Positions 37,540 to 43,188 of a stretch of 64,000 nucleotides of DNA are shown here, piece by piece; position 1 is the first letter of the stretch, and every line of letters begins with the position of its first letter. Under the pieces are notes generated by a model. It was not told the origin of the DNA. It was given only the letters and a program-made list of their open reading frames with translations, and searched no databases. Where the stretch lies: contig NZ_BJMV01000002.1 in assembly GCF_006539345.1 (NCBI RefSeq), positions 186,001 to 250,000 on the forward strand, given 5' to 3'. Made by a program: the position numbers and the translations under genes. The stretch comes from Acetobacter peroxydans. Its GTDB lineage: Bacteria > Pseudomonadota > Alphaproteobacteria > Acetobacterales > Acetobacteraceae.

Positions 37540-38535
37540 ATGGGCTCGCAGAGGCTTGTAGCGGTTCAGATGGACCCGCTGGAGCATATCAATATCGAGG
37601 GCGATTCCACATTCGCCCTGATGCTGGAGGCTCAGGCACGGGGCCATTCCCTGTTTGTTTACGAGGTGGGCAGTCTGGCATTGGGTGAGGGCGTGCCGCA
37701 GGCAGGGCAGCACAGGCCTGCACGCGTCAGCGCGCTCATGCGGCCTGTTTCCGTCCGGCGCGAAAAAGGTAACCATGCGACCTTTGGTGAGGCGGCGCGG
37801 CGCTCTCTGTCGGAAATGGATGTGGTGCTGATGCGTCAGGATCCACCGTTCGACATGGCCTATATTACCGCTACCCATATGCTTGACCACGTGCATGGCA
37901 TAGGGCCGGATCATGCACTGGTGGTCAATGACCCGCGCTGGGTGCGGGACTGCCCGGAAAAAATTCTGGTCACGCATTTTCCCGACCTGATGCCTCCGAC
38001 ACTGGTGACATGGGACGTGGCGGAAATTCGCGCCTTCCGGGCGAAGTGGCGCGATATCATTGTCAAACCGTTGTTCGGCAATGGCGGCAGCGGCGTGTTC
38101 CGTATCCGTGAGGATGACGGGAACCTCAACGCCCTGCTGGAAATGCACTTTGCCCGCTCGCGTGAACCGCTGATGATCCAGCGTTACGAACCCGCCGTTA
38201 CGGCCGGAGACAAGCGCATCATTCTGGTGGATGGTGAGCCCATTGGCGCGATCAACCGCGTTCCTTCGGGTGATGATCATCGCTCCAACATGCATGTGGG
38301 CGGTGTGGCGCGTCAGGTCGGGCTGACAGAGCGTGATCAGGAAATCTGCCGGGCTATCGGGCCGTTTCTCAAGGAACATGGCCTGATTTTTGTAGGCATT
38401 GATGTGATCGGCCAGTATCTGACCGAAATCAACGTGACGTCTCCTACCGGTTTACAGGAACTTGAACGTTTTGATGGTGTGAATGGTGCCGGGCTCGTAT
38501 GGGATGCCATCGAGGCGCGCCTCGACGACCGCTGA
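37540..38535 (+). CDS. gshB: Glutathione synthetase
   Basis: ATP-grasp enzyme that adds glycine to gamma-glutamylcysteine. It shows [30 protein letters not shown] at the start, [22 protein letters not shown]-grasp residues in [16 protein letters not shown], and [19 protein letters not shown]-type metal/phosphate binding (here GIDVIG). It is 331 residues, slightly longer than E. coli GshB. It completes the pathway begun by gshA at the start of the window. Confidence 0.96.
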
Positions 38536-38720: not shown

Positions 38721-39458
38721 GTGGCTCTTGAAGAAATAGTGGCGAACAGGCAGGCAGGGGAAATGCACGACATGCTGAACGGGTATCCTTCTGATGGGGA
38801 AGGCGCGCCCGTTCCTCCTCCTTCGCGTTCGGCGCTTGATGCGGAAGCGGTCAAGCTTGCCTACCGTCGCTGGGCCAATGTTTACGATCTGGCATTTGGG
38901 GGAATTTCCCGCTTTGGCCGCCTGCGCGCGGTCGAGGCCGTAAACGGTCTGCCCGGCACGGATGTGCTGGAAGTCGGGGTTGGTACCGGGCTCGCCCTGC
39001 CGCATTACAATGCGGACAAGGTCATTACTGGTATTGACCTTTCAACTGACATGTTGGCCAAGGCGCGTGAACGCGTGCAACGCGACAAGTTGGCCACCGT
39101 GCATGATCTGCTGGAGATGGATGCCGAGGCCACGCGGTTTGCGGATAATTCCTTCGATATTGCCGTGGCCATGTTCGTGGCCTCCGTTGTGCCGCATCCG
39201 CGCAAGCTACTATGTGAACTCAAAAGAGTTGTCCGCCCCGGCGGGTATATTCTGTTCGTAAACCATTTCCTTGCGCCGGGCGGTGTGCGCGGCGCGGTTG
39301 AGCACGCTATGGCGCGTGCCTCGCGCTCTCTTGGCTGGCACCCTGATTTCGCGATGGAATCGCTGCTCCCGCCCAACGATCTGGCGCGGGCCTATATCCA
39401 GCCTGTGCCACCCATGGGGCTGTTTACGCTCGTAACGCTTGAAAACCTGCCGGACTGA
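38721..39458 (+). CDS. pmtA: PmtA-like phosphatidylethanolamine N-methyltransferase
   Basis: SAM-dependent methyltransferase of 245 residues. AVKLAYRRWANVYDLAFGGISRFGR near residue 45 is the PmtA/UbiE-like opening; the SAM motif is LEVGVGTGLALPHY and later VVRPGGYILFVNHFL. The Rhodobacter-type PmtA makes phosphatidylcholine from phosphatidylethanolamine. GTG 38721 has a good AAGAGG before it, but ATG 38763 is also possible and would remove a poorly conserved N-terminus. A related quinone methyltransferase cannot be excluded by eye. Confidence 0.72.
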   Translation: MALEEIVANRQAGEMHDMLNGYPSDGEGAPVPPPSRSALDAEAVKLAYRRWANVYDLAFGGISRFGRLRAVEAVNGLPGTDVLEVGVGTGLALPHYNADKVITGIDLSTDMLAKARERVQRDKLATVHDLLEMDAEATRFADNSFDIAVAMFVASVVPHPRKLLCELKRVVRPGGYILFVNHFLAPGGVRGAVEHAMARASRSLGWHPDFAMESLLPPNDLARAYIQPVPPMGLFTLVTLENLPD

Positions 39459-39669: not shown

Positions 39670-40986
39670 ATGACCGTTATCCACGCTCAGAACCCACTTG
39701 CGGCCCTTTCCGGTAAAGGCCGTTCTCTTTTGGGTGTGGAGGCCGGGCTTGGTGCCGCGTGGCTGGCTCTGGCGGTTATCGCGGCTCTGGTCGGGGGCGG
39801 AGTGTCCGTTTTCGCAGGGATGGGGTCTTTGGCCTCTGGTTCTGTCTGGGCTGGGCTTGAGCAGGCGCATCCTGCGCTGATGCTGCTTTATGTGGTTGTG
39901 CCTGCCATGGTATGCGGATTCGGCACCTTGTGGCTGCCCGGTGCTTTGCACCGTGGCGGAATGCTGGCCAACGCCGTGAATTTGTCTGCTCTGGGGTTGG
40001 TTACGGCCGGTATGGTGTTGACCGTTGGCGCGGCCCTGTCGGGTTCTGGCGCGCATGGCGGGGGCGCGACTGCGGCCATGCTGCTGTGGTGCGCCGGGAC
40101 AGTGCTGGCCTGCATGGCGCTTCTGGTTACGATTTTTGACAGCCGGGCGGATAGCGTCGAGCGGCGGGCGTTCTCGCCTTTCGTGTGGGGAGAAATGCTC
40201 TCAGCCTCGGTGCTGCTGTTGGCGGTTCCGGTTTTTGCGGCGCATCTGGTGCGGCAGGGGCTGGCGTCGGTCGGCGTGCTGTCGGTCTCGACAGTCGTGG
40301 GCGCGGAATCCTTCGCCGGGCCGATTGGTCTGGTTGTGCTGTTGGCCGGCTTCGGTATCGTTTTTGAAATGAGCGCCCATATTGGCAGCTTTTCAGAAAA
40401 GCCTGTCGCTCTTGTTATGGCCGCCACGGCAGGCACCGGGCTGGTTACCTGGGCTAAGGCCGATCTGGCTTCGGGCGCTGAGCAGGCCACGGCCTTGCGG
40501 ATAGGGGCGGCTCTGCTCGCGGTCTGCACATTTTCGGCTGTCAGTCTCGCAGGGCTGTGGCTGGCGGGCACATGGCGCAGCCGCGTGTCGCCCCGCGTGC
40601 CGCTGCTGTGGGGTATGGGTTTTCTGGTTGTCGTGTCTGTGGGATGGGTTGCCCAGCTTATGCACGGCGCGGGCCTGCACTCCGCCCTGCAACTTGGCGC
40701 GCTGTATGCTGTCTGCGGTGGTTTTTACCTGTGGCGCGGGCAGACTGGTGGGTTCTGGTACCCCCAGCGTCTGGCGCGGCTACAATTTGTGCTGACAGCG
40801 GTGGCGACGGTTCTCGTGTTCGTGCCCGGCCAGCAGGCGTTGGGCAGCGCGCTGTTCGGGCTGTCGGCTCTGTGCTTCATTCTGGCGGTTGGGCTGGGCT
40901 TGCGCTATGGCGCGCTCGAGCAGACGGGTAAGGTCGCGATGGCTCCCGTTCGGTCTGGCCGTATGGGCAGGGGAGAGGGCGCATGA
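39670..40986 (+). CDS. Degenerate heme-copper oxidase subunit I (CtaD-like) without copper site
   Basis: A 438-residue protein with about 12 hydrophobic segments. AHPALMLLYVVVPAMVCGFG (66-85) aligns with the CtaD segment AHGILMMFFVVIPALFGGFG as I remember it for Paracoccus. GFGIVFEMSAHIGSFSEKP, PLLWGMGFLVVVSVG and LGALYAVCGGFYLWRG also align with subunit I. His67 matches the heme a ligand His94 and His337 matches His413. The CuB ligands and cross-linked Tyr are replaced (Gly217, Leu221, Lys263, Ala264), as is the heme a3 ligand (Gly335). It therefore cannot reduce oxygen by the known mechanism, but could hold one low-spin heme. It is intact, not frameshifted. ctaB overlaps its end by four bases. 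Confidence 0.75.
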   Translation: MTVIHAQNPLAALSGKGRSLLGVEAGLGAAWLALAVIAALVGGGVSVFAGMGSLASGSVWAGLEQAHPALMLLYVVVPAMVCGFGTLWLPGALHRGGMLANAVNLSALGLVTAGMVLTVGAALSGSGAHGGGATAAMLLWCAGTVLACMALLVTIFDSRADSVERRAFSPFVWGEMLSASVLLLAVPVFAAHLVRQGLASVGVLSVSTVVGAESFAGPIGLVVLLAGFGIVFEMSAHIGSFSEKPVALVMAATAGTGLVTWAKADLASGAEQATALRIGAALLAVCTFSAVSLAGLWLAGTWRSRVSPRVPLLWGMGFLVVVSVGWVAQLMHGAGLHSALQLGALYAVCGGFYLWRGQTGGFWYPQRLARLQFVLTAVATVLVFVPGQQALGSALFGLSALCFILAVGLGLRYGALEQTGKVAMAPVRSGRMGRGEGA

Positions 40987-41948
40987 GCGAGGCGGCTCTG
41001 CCGGATACAGCAGCGCGGCGTATCCGCTTTGATACCGCGCGTGTTGGTACGCAGGCGCGTGACTGGCTGGCGCTGCTCAAGCCTCGTGTTATTTCCCTTG
41101 TGGTGTTTACCGGTGCCGCCGGGATGATCATGGCACCGGGGCACCTCAATCTTTTCGTGGCGGCCGTCAGTATTTTCTGCATCTGTCTGGCTTCAGGGGC
41201 CGCAGGGGCCATCAATATGTGGTTTGACCGCGATATTGACGCCGTGATGCAGCGCACCATTACCCGCCCTATTCCCGGCGGGCGTATTCCACAGGATGAG
41301 GCGCTGGCTTACGGTGTGGGGCTGTCCTGCCTGTCTGTCTGCCTGATGTGGATCGCGACCAACGCACTGGCGGCCGCCATTCTGGCGTTTTCGATCTTTT
41401 TCTATGCCGTTATCTACACCATGTGGCTCAAGCGCTCGACACCGCAGAACATCGTGATCGGCGGTGCCGCCGGGGCTTTCCCGCCGATGATCGGCTGGGC
41501 GGCGGCTACGGGTCATATGGCGGTCATGCCGGTGGTCATGTTCGGGATCGTGTTTTTCTGGACGCCACCACATTTCTGGTCGCTCTCGCTCTACGCCTGC
41601 AAGGACTACGGGCGGGCGGGTATTCCCATGCTGCCGGTTGTGCGGGGTGGGCGGCATACGCGCTGGCAGATTTTTGGTTATACGCTTGTGCTGCTGGCGG
41701 TTTCTCTGGTGCCGTCGGTGCTGGGGCTGAGCGGCTGGCTGTATACCGCTACCGCCCTTGTGCTGGGGCTGGGCTTTATCGGCTGCGCTGTGCGGGTTCT
41801 GCTGGAGCCTCAGGACGCGACCGGCGTCAGCCTCGTCGGCGATAAGGCGGCACGTGTTTCGTTCCGTTTTTCGTTGGCTTATCTTTTCTTCCTGTTCTGC
41901 GGCCTGCTGGCGGATCACGTCCTGCGGGGCTGGAACTGGATCGGGTGA
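40983..41948 (+). CDS. ctaB: Protoheme IX farnesyltransferase (heme O synthase)
   Basis: Membrane prenyltransferase that converts heme B to heme O. It has the Asp-rich motif NMWFDRDIDAVMQRTITRPIPGG, YTMWLKRSTPQNIVIGGAAGAFPPMIGW, and FFWTPPHFWSLSLY. It is 321 residues, with about nine membrane segments. In an intact cta cluster it serves the aa3 oxidase; here the partner oxidase is degenerate, so heme O for a bo3-type quinol oxidase encoded elsewhere is a likely use. It is coupled to the CtaD-like gene by an ATGA overlap. Confidence 0.95.
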   Translation: MSEAALPDTAARRIRFDTARVGTQARDWLALLKPRVISLVVFTGAAGMIMAPGHLNLFVAAVSIFCICLASGAAGAINMWFDRDIDAVMQRTITRPIPGGRIPQDEALAYGVGLSCLSVCLMWIATNALAAAILAFSIFFYAVIYTMWLKRSTPQNIVIGGAAGAFPPMIGWAAATGHMAVMPVVMFGIVFFWTPPHFWSLSLYACKDYGRAGIPMLPVVRGGRHTRWQIFGYTLVLLAVSLVPSVLGLSGWLYTATALVLGLGFIGCAVRVLLEPQDATGVSLVGDKAARVSFRFSLAYLFFLFCGLLADHVLRGWNWIG

Positions 41949-41959
41949 GGAACTCCATC

Positions 41960-42097
41960 ATGAGCGCAACCACCGTAAGTGTGCAGGTAGAACAGGCGGA
42001 AGCAAAGCGTAGGCAGACACAGCGTGTCAGAAGTATGCTTGCCTTCATGCTGGTTCTGGTCGGGATCATGTTTGGGCTAGGGCTGCTGCGGGCCTAG
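41960..42097 (+). CDS. Small single-span membrane protein downstream of ctaB (CoxF-like?)
   Basis: A 45-residue ORF starting 11 bases after the ctaB stop. A charged segment (EQAEAKRRQTQRVRS) precedes one membrane helix (MLAFMLVLVGIMFGLGLLRA). Alphaproteobacterial cta clusters often have a short CoxF-like peptide of this design, Arg-rich then one helix, right after ctaB, so I read it as a surviving member of that cluster. Neither ctaG nor ctaE follows; a strong terminator does. The family assignment is tentative. Confidence 0.55.
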   Translation: MSATTVSVQVEQAEAKRRQTQRVRSMLAFMLVLVGIMFGLGLLRA

Positions 42098-42234: not shown

Positions 42235-43188
42235 TCAGCGGGTTTGCTGTATGGCGGAAAGCAGCCAGCGGCCACCGCGTGCGGGGCGGACAAACGTCCA
42301 CAGTTCCGTAATGGTCACAGGTTCGGTCGAGCTTCCGTCAATCACCTGCCCCATGGCGTTTGTGGTGAGGTCGATCAGGCTGTAACGCATGGCCACCGTG
42401 GCGTAGTTCATCCCGTTTTCAGACCATGCTTCGGACACATCTCCCTGCAGGAAGCGCACGTCGGAAACGACATTGCGCGCGCCCTGACTGGCGAGAGCCG
42501 CAAGCTGCTCGTTGAAATAGGAGACCATCTCCGGCGTGGCCATCTGCTGCATGGCCGGAATGTTCTGCTGATTCCAGGCTGTCTGGATGTCCATCAGCGT
42601 CTGCTGGAACGCCTGATAATCAGCAGTTGTGATCTGCACCGGGGTGGATGGGGCCTGCTGCGTGCCAAAGGGCGGCGATACCGGACGCGACGGCCCTTGC
42701 ATCCCCATGCGGCTGCCCGCATTGCCAGCGCCGGAAAAGCGACGCACGAGCCACATGACCACCATCACGACCAGCCCGATCTGGAGCAGAAGCCCGATGA
42801 AGCTGAACAGGCCGCCTACACCCCCCATGAAACCGTGCCCCGAAAGCAGTCCGAACAGCCCGGCACCCAGAAACCCGCCGGCAAAGCCGGTCAGGAACGG
42901 GTGGCGGTTCTGATAGGGCATCATGCCCTGCCGGGCGAATGGCGCAGCCCCCATCGCACCATATCCGGGCGAGGAAGGAGCCACGCGCGGCGTAATGGAG
43001 CGCTCCATGGGCGCTGCTTCATAGGGGGATGTGTTGGTTCTGGGCGGCGCGCTCCATGTCCGGCTGCCTCGGCTTCCCATGGAGCCTCCGCTGCCTGCCC
43101 GTGCATCAGCATGGGAAGCAAGGGGGCCAATGGCAAGGCTCGCCGTCATAACCATGGCGAGTGCGGAGGAAAGAAAACGAACGCTCAC
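42235..43188 (-). CDS. Secreted or membrane-anchored Tim44-like domain protein
   Basis: A 317-residue protein. An N-terminal signal (FLSSALAMVMTASLAIGPLASHADA) is followed by a Ser/Pro/Gly-rich linker, a Gly-rich hydrophobic stretch with one membrane helix (GLLLQIGLVVMVVMWLVRRF), and a C-terminal Tim44-like domain of about 140 residues (YQAFQQTLMDIQTAWNQQNIPAMQQMATPEMVSYFNEQL, ITELWTFVRPARGGRWLLSAIQQ). This matches the bacterial Tim44 family of unknown function. It is the last gene of a minus-strand series after pmbA. Confidence 0.8.
   Translation of the reverse strand: MSVRFLSSALAMVMTASLAIGPLASHADARAGSGGSMGSRGSRTWSAPPRTNTSPYEAAPMERSITPRVAPSSPGYGAMGAAPFARQGMMPYQNRHPFLTGFAGGFLGAGLFGLLSGHGFMGGVGGLFSFIGLLLQIGLVVMVVMWLVRRFSGAGNAGSRMGMQGPSRPVSPPFGTQQAPSTPVQITTADYQAFQQTLMDIQTAWNQQNIPAMQQMATPEMVSYFNEQLAALASQGARNVVSDVRFLQGDVSEAWSENGMNYATVAMRYSLIDLTTNAMGQVIDGSSTEPVTITELWTFVRPARGGRWLLSAIQQTR

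Follow-up and report, generated by a model that had tools for sequence, protein, structure and literature searches.

The window, by which we mean the whole stretch of 64,000 nucleotides of Acetobacter peroxydans DNA that was analysed, carries directly before the heme O synthase gene ctaB a gene whose product resembles subunit I of cytochrome c oxidase (CtaD) and has lost the oxygen site of that enzyme. The locus raises the question of what such a protein, labelled CtaD* here (ORF 39670-40986, forward strand), still does, and whether it still carries a cofactor. The features on which the answer draws are the following, with positions counted in the window.

37540 to 38535, forward strand: gshB, glutathione synthase, a conserved upstream neighbour
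38721 to 39458, forward strand: SAM methyltransferase; best NCBIfam match PmtA, 150.7 bits, below the cut-off of 390
39670 to 40986, forward strand: ctaD*, catalytically dead descendant of CtaD (subunit I), 438 aa, 12 predicted TM helices
39868 to 39870, forward strand: codon of His67, equivalent to Paracoccus His94, low-spin heme ligand in helix II; His in 69/69 CtaD* sequences
40678 to 40680, forward strand: codon of His337, equivalent to Paracoccus His413, low-spin heme ligand in helix X; His in 69/69 CtaD* sequences
40983 to 41948, forward strand: ctaB, heme O synthase; TIGR01473 at 319.3 bits, above cut-off; its start overlaps the ctaD* stop by four bases
41960 to 42097, forward strand: 45-aa single-TM protein, counterpart of the small protein encoded downstream of ctaB in canonical cta operons (alignment A2)
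42235 to 43188, reverse strand: Tim44-domain protein, a conserved downstream neighbour

The frame of ctaD* is uninterrupted from ATG to TGA, and the four bases shared with ctaB consist of this TGA and the ctaB ATG at 40983. CtaD* matched the Pfam family COX1 (PF00115) over residues 28-388 with 43.1 bits against a curated cut-off of 34.8, and all 22 members of alignment A1 matched this family at E <= 0.001. Subunit I chains in the PDB were matched with E values down to 5e-15. The cut-offs of the equivalog models were missed, with 50.1 against 670.75 bits for CtaD (TIGR02891) and 22.2 against 1020.35 bits for CyoB. AlphaFold2, run on 22 Acetobacter sequences, predicted 12 long helices (mean pLDDT 73.8, pTM 0.76), and the 50 Foldseek matches listed were all to entries that contain an oxidase or NOR (TM 0.58-0.76 by query length). 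In a structural alignment with Rhodobacter subunit I (3omi_C), 391 residues were superposed at 3.1 A with a Z score of 33.5, and residues 23-419 of CtaD* aligned to subunit I. The original prediction, made from the DNA letters, had described a protein resembling CtaD over most of its length, with an intact frame coupled to ctaB, and had named a structural match to subunit I as a test; the fold, the open frame and the overlap with ctaB all agree with it. The nearest named loci are those of A. suratthaniensis (84% identity) and A. papayae (85%; best segment in both cases). The window genome also has a heme A synthase match and a second, strong subunit I gene (G000:C4, 488.5 bits, 667-codon frame), which from its score and length is taken as CyoB. 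This subunit I of the bo3 oxidase has the same fold as CtaD* and uses the heme O made by CtaB; unlike CtaD*, it is a separate full-length gene. CyoB has the same low-spin His pair.

To follow the ligands, we aligned 69 distinct CtaD* sequences with 24 canonical CtaD sequences. Identical sequences, pieces shorter than 300 aa, among them the frameshifted copy of G029/L055, and the partial canonical L118 were left out before counting. Paracoccus residue numbers are used as labels, assigned by motif to a canonical CtaD sequence. Compared with canonical CtaD, the window protein has Gly217 in place of His276, Leu221 in place of Tyr280, and Lys263 and Ala264 in place of His325 and His326, while His411 falls at Gly335, next to a deletion. 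It therefore has none of the heme a3/CuB ligands His276, His325, His326 and His411, nor Tyr280. The two low-spin ligands His94 and His413 correspond to His67 and His337, which lie 270 residues apart. These replacements and equivalences are as originally proposed, and the conservation of both His among orthologues, which had been set as a test, turned out to be complete (69/69).

Across the family, the oxygen site is lost throughout. Among the 69 CtaD*, His276 is found in none, His325 in 15, His326 in two and His411 in one, and no sequence has the complete set of four a3/CuB ligands. Tyr280 and Lys354 are likewise found in 0/69 and Glu278 in 14/69. The binuclear site of high-spin heme and metal B, by which the heme-copper oxidoreductase superfamily is defined, is thus missing from CtaD*. 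The 24 canonical CtaDs share 223 invariant columns, of which just four remain invariant in the 69 CtaD*, namely His67, Trp173, Trp261 and His337; the chance that both low-spin ligands fall among the four is about 2e-4. There are 13 canonical-invariant His columns, of which all 69 CtaD* keep the two low-spin ligands and no others. As a control for alignment bias, every CtaD* row was aligned singly to a profile of canonical sequences only. The His94 position was then His in 69/69 rows, and the His413 position was His in 59 and unaligned in 10, with no other residue in any row.

Because the axial His pair stands among four never-changed positions of a fast-diverging protein, we predict with high confidence that CtaD* binds heme through His67 and His337. 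Retained heme binding would be by far the simplest explanation of the invariant pair, and very probably the right one. The invariance of Trp173 and Trp261 shows that residues other than ligands can be equally conserved. The surroundings of the heme have changed. Arg54, the residue that contacts the formyl group of heme a, remains in 4/69 CtaD*, and the loop with Arg473/474, presumably the propionate-binding arginines, is deleted in most members, so that the heme would be held differently. The segment between helices XI and XII is shortened in 67/69 CtaD*, and that between IX and X in most. Relative to subunit I of the A1-type aa3 oxidase, CtaD* has in common the fold, the 12 helices, the low-spin His and the ancestral place before ctaB; it differs in having no heme a3/CuB ligands, no Tyr280 or Lys354 and only occasionally Glu278, in periplasmic loops that are shortened in most members, and in a locus without subunits II and III.

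The rate of change of CtaD* was then compared with that of its neighbours. Summed over the CtaD* tree, there are about 57 changes per site. By parsimony, the median column changes 19 times, and no change at all is seen in just four of 425 columns, those of the two His and the two Trp. Median pairwise identity is 27% (63 sequences). Nevertheless, in all 69 distinct sequences the frame stays open for 407 codons or more, counted from stop to stop. Pairwise dN/dS of CtaD* ranged from 0.048 to 0.240 with a median of 0.117 (14 pairs; 18 were tried, four of which gave no CtaD* value). Among the neighbours, the median was 0.045 (ctaB), 0.059 (upstream methyltransferase) and 0.044 (gshB). By these values, CtaD* evolves faster than its neighbours, yet under clear constraint. 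Random decay is ruled out by dN/dS together with the unchanged columns; the earlier suggestion of a new role instead of decay fits the purifying selection and the two invariant His in so divergent a family. In Acetobacter papayae JCM 25143 (G029; L055/L047), CtaD* lies in three pieces in three frames, reflecting either decay or an error of the draft genome.

Gene order shows that CtaD* descends from ctaD in place. At the canonical locus L116 the order is methyltransferase-ctaC-ctaD-ctaB-ctaG-ctaE-surf1, and the shorter canonical loci L083, L088 and L092 have the same order from the methyltransferase to ctaG; the remaining canonical loci gave no methyltransferase match within the stretch fetched. 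The methyltransferase gene, which is found ahead of ctaC-ctaD in some canonical relatives, thus serves as a marker of the ancestral locus. Genomes with CtaD* have the order gshB-methyltransferase-CtaD*-ctaB, with a small ORF next and, in stretches long enough to show them, Tim44, PmbA, M16 and thrC genes on the opposite strand. In 69/69 loci ctaB lies downstream of CtaD* on the same strand, within about 100 bases and often overlapping, which supports the link to CtaB that had been proposed. The genes ctaC, ctaG, ctaE and surf1 were found in none of the 27 CtaD* loci of at least 7 kb. Cox11 (PF04442) had no match in the 65 genomes that carry CtaD*, and it was also unmatched in G128 and G199, both with canonical CtaD, so that its loss is not particular to the carriers. 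At the loci of these two genomes (L120/L121), canonical CtaD stands with ctaC and ctaB in a genome without a Cox11 match.

In the protein tree, the 69 CtaD* are split from the 24 canonical sequences at one branch (SH-aLRT 100). The carriers form one group in the ctaB tree (SH-aLRT 80), which is joined first by G061 (86) and next by the canonical G128/G199 (95). Both trees carry long-branch warnings. Several independent degenerations are disfavoured by the single branch of the protein tree and the grouping of carriers in the ctaB tree, and the simplest and likely reading, within the limits set by the long branches, is that CtaD* arose once and was later lost in some genomes. The CtaD* of G131 (L079/L111), with a frame of 526 codons from stop to stop, has lost the oxygen site and kept Arg54 and nearly the full length; it is possibly an intermediate stage. 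At L105 (G073), the ctaB matches between 7571 and 9497 cover about 1.9 kb where 0.9 kb is usual, due to duplication, fusion or merged hits.

With a loose heuristic, a small TM ORF was found after ctaB in 67/68 CtaD* loci and 12/15 canonical loci. The first ORF given by this heuristic in L080/L081 is unlike the other small proteins, and none was found in G061, G113, G137, L039, L041, L094 and L102, the last being a carrier. The 45-aa protein of the window could not be placed firmly in any Pfam or NCBIfam family. Coa3 (PF09813), a mitochondrial Cox1 assembly factor, was matched at E <= 1 by 7/28 relatives of the small protein, the best at 3.2e-5, and had no match among the other 21, which include the window's own copy. 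The relation to Coa3 is thus weak, and the single-TM protein that many alphaproteobacterial cta operons encode downstream of ctaB may be a bacterial Coa3.

We also asked with which respiratory genes CtaD* occurs. The comparison covers 74 genomes that were chosen, not drawn at random, and 38 of which share one genus label; 65 are carriers (G029 with its frameshifted copy among them) and nine are non-carriers. Matches were present in 129 genomes, and sequence was taken from 47; most of the others look canonical by frame lengths and match ends. Oxidases are called bo3-type when they give a strong PF00115 match, as assigned by score and length. CtaD* is present in 65 of the 67 chosen genomes that have both ctaB and a bo3-type PF00115 protein, and in none of the seven others. 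These seven (G011, G015, G089, G094, G126, G130 and G176) have neither ctaB above cut-off nor any strong PF00115 match; in three of them the only PF00115 matches score 139-145 bits and are taken as NOR, and G094, which is 82% complete and carries Cox11, may not belong to the group. The other two non-carriers, G061 and G113, keep ctaB and a bo3-type oxidase without CtaD*, which means that CtaB can do without CtaD*. In both (L153 and L156, respectively), ctaB comes right after the methyltransferase gene, with neither CtaD* nor a detectable small protein.

Heme A synthase had no match in 17/65 carriers, and cytochrome c1 was unmatched in 9/65 carriers and matched in 6/9 non-carriers; one carrier, G208, has neither match. 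CtaD* thus follows heme O synthesis and a bo3-type oxidase, and follows neither bc1 nor heme A. Heme A is ruled out as an obligatory cofactor in the 17 carriers that gave no match to its synthase, where the heme must be b or o. Of the original prediction that the low-spin heme a ligands are kept, the part concerning the two His stands, while the heme itself may be of another type than a. A tie of CtaD* to the bc1 complex is ruled out by the co-occurrence data, and the quinol or electron-transfer role that had been proposed is disfavoured in so far as it depends on such a tie. Six genomes (G092, G106, G116, G161, G177 and G195) had no match to the window protein, yet contain divergent copies of 412-448 aa (stop to stop) that lie before ctaB and keep both His; PF00115 also missed those in G092, G177 and G116. 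The association with ctaB may reflect no more than common inheritance in one operon and joint loss where genomes were reduced.

This gene has been described before. A 2014 study by Matsutani reportedly found that ctaA and ctaB of A. pasteurianus work and that the function of ctaD is lost, in a partial ctaBD cluster. From its place beside ctaB, the ctaD of this cluster, published as the 'deranged COX1-like protein' of Acetobacter, is the same gene as CtaD*. In the passage concerned, the protein is said to lack all conserved cofactor-binding residues (PMC10715153); this 'all' is contradicted by our alignment, in which two ligands are kept in 69/69 CtaD*. Passages elsewhere place ctaD (APT_01775) beside ctaB (APT_01774) in A. 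pasteurianus (PMC5158111), call APA386B_609 an 'incomplete cytochrome c oxidase' (PMC3751514) and state that aa3 is absent in acetic acid bacteria (PMC4007555). Against the present reading, a table note counts A. pasteurianus as having cytochrome c oxidase, citing Matsutani 2014 (PMC4596401). In none of these passages are the kept His mentioned. The main text of a paper on a knockout collection (PMC8602642) mentions neither ctaD, ctaB, heme nor cytochromes, and a literature search with narrow terms found no paper on an oxidase-fold protein with only the low-spin heme.

Taken together, we tentatively favour CtaD* as a bis-His heme b or heme o membrane protein that aids CtaB and the heme handling of the bo3 oxidase. 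In this model, ctaD* is the vertical descendant of ctaD in an ancestral ctaCDBGE operon, as the gene order shows. The lineage would first have lost cytochrome c oxidase, with subunits II and III, SURF1 and CtaG/Cox11, after which decay would have affected the oxygen site as well as the loops that cover the hemes on the periplasmic side. A 12-helix membrane protein would have been kept with one heme between His67 and His337, of type b or o and perhaps a in some species. Together with the translationally coupled CtaB and the small Coa3-like protein, it would hold or pass heme for the bo3/ba3 quinol oxidase. We infer this handling role less firmly than heme binding, and we do so because of the fixed coupling to ctaB, the presence of CtaD*, within the chosen genomes, only with heme O synthesis and a bo3-type oxidase, and the retention of the small gene. 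More speculatively, and with rather less confidence, a single conversion near the root of the acetic acid bacteria may have made subunit I a one-heme membrane cytochrome that acts with CtaB and the Coa3-like protein as a heme chaperone for the replacement oxidase.

The main alternative is electron transfer without bc1, in which quinol or a periplasmic cytochrome would reduce the bis-His heme, the electrons would go on to another membrane partner, and CtaD* would have no dedicated part in heme supply. The heme site that has survived the loss of the oxygen site is exactly the low-spin one, whose heme passes electrons on to the oxygen site in the intact enzyme; shortening of the IX-X and XI-XII loops could moreover expose the heme to the periplasm. 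However, CtaD* does not track bc1 (c1 is unmatched in 9/65 carriers and matched in 6/9 non-carriers), subunit II is gone from the locus, and the linkage is to ctaB, with no partner among the identified neighbours. We regard electron transfer as unlikely. A sensor or regulator of respiration, responding through its heme to redox, O2 or NO and acting via CtaB or the small protein, would also explain a conserved bis-His site without a catalytic site. It is very improbable, as no output domain is seen in a protein whose residues 23-419 align to subunit I, and no regulator is found among the identified conserved neighbours.

According to the published view, as given in the passage on the deranged COX1-like protein, CtaD* would have no cofactor and would be a purely structural stabiliser of CtaB (PMC10715153). 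Adjacency to ctaB in 69/69 speaks for this view, as do ctaB and ctaA of A. pasteurianus, which are reportedly functional. A purely structural role is not expected, however, to single out two of 13 canonical-invariant His columns; with both low-spin His invariant, cofactor ligands are present, and ctaB is kept alone in G061 and G113. This view is, like electron transfer, improbable without being negligible. Finally, CtaD* might be a decaying pseudogene whose frame is kept merely to carry ribosomes to ctaB. Fast evolution (median pairwise identity 27%, 63 sequences) and the frameshifts in one genome (G029/L055, a draft in which errors are possible) point in this direction, but dN/dS of 0.05-0.24, frames of at least 407 codons open in 69 distinct sequences and four unchanged columns including both ligands contradict it, and we consider it next to impossible.

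The low-spin heme pair appears as the part of the oxidase core that is kept by selection once catalysis goes. The data contradict the picture, given in one published passage, of a gene devoid of cofactor ligands. The name 'cytochrome c oxidase subunit' for the CtaD* of vinegar bacteria is misleading as to function. How heme is inserted into subunit I is described as an open question in the relevant passage of PMC9145763, and a subunit I derivative fixed beside heme O synthase makes a part of this question testable in easily grown bacteria. A gene that has been regarded as a dead relic is thus probably a working heme protein, which likely helps the adjacent heme-making enzyme.
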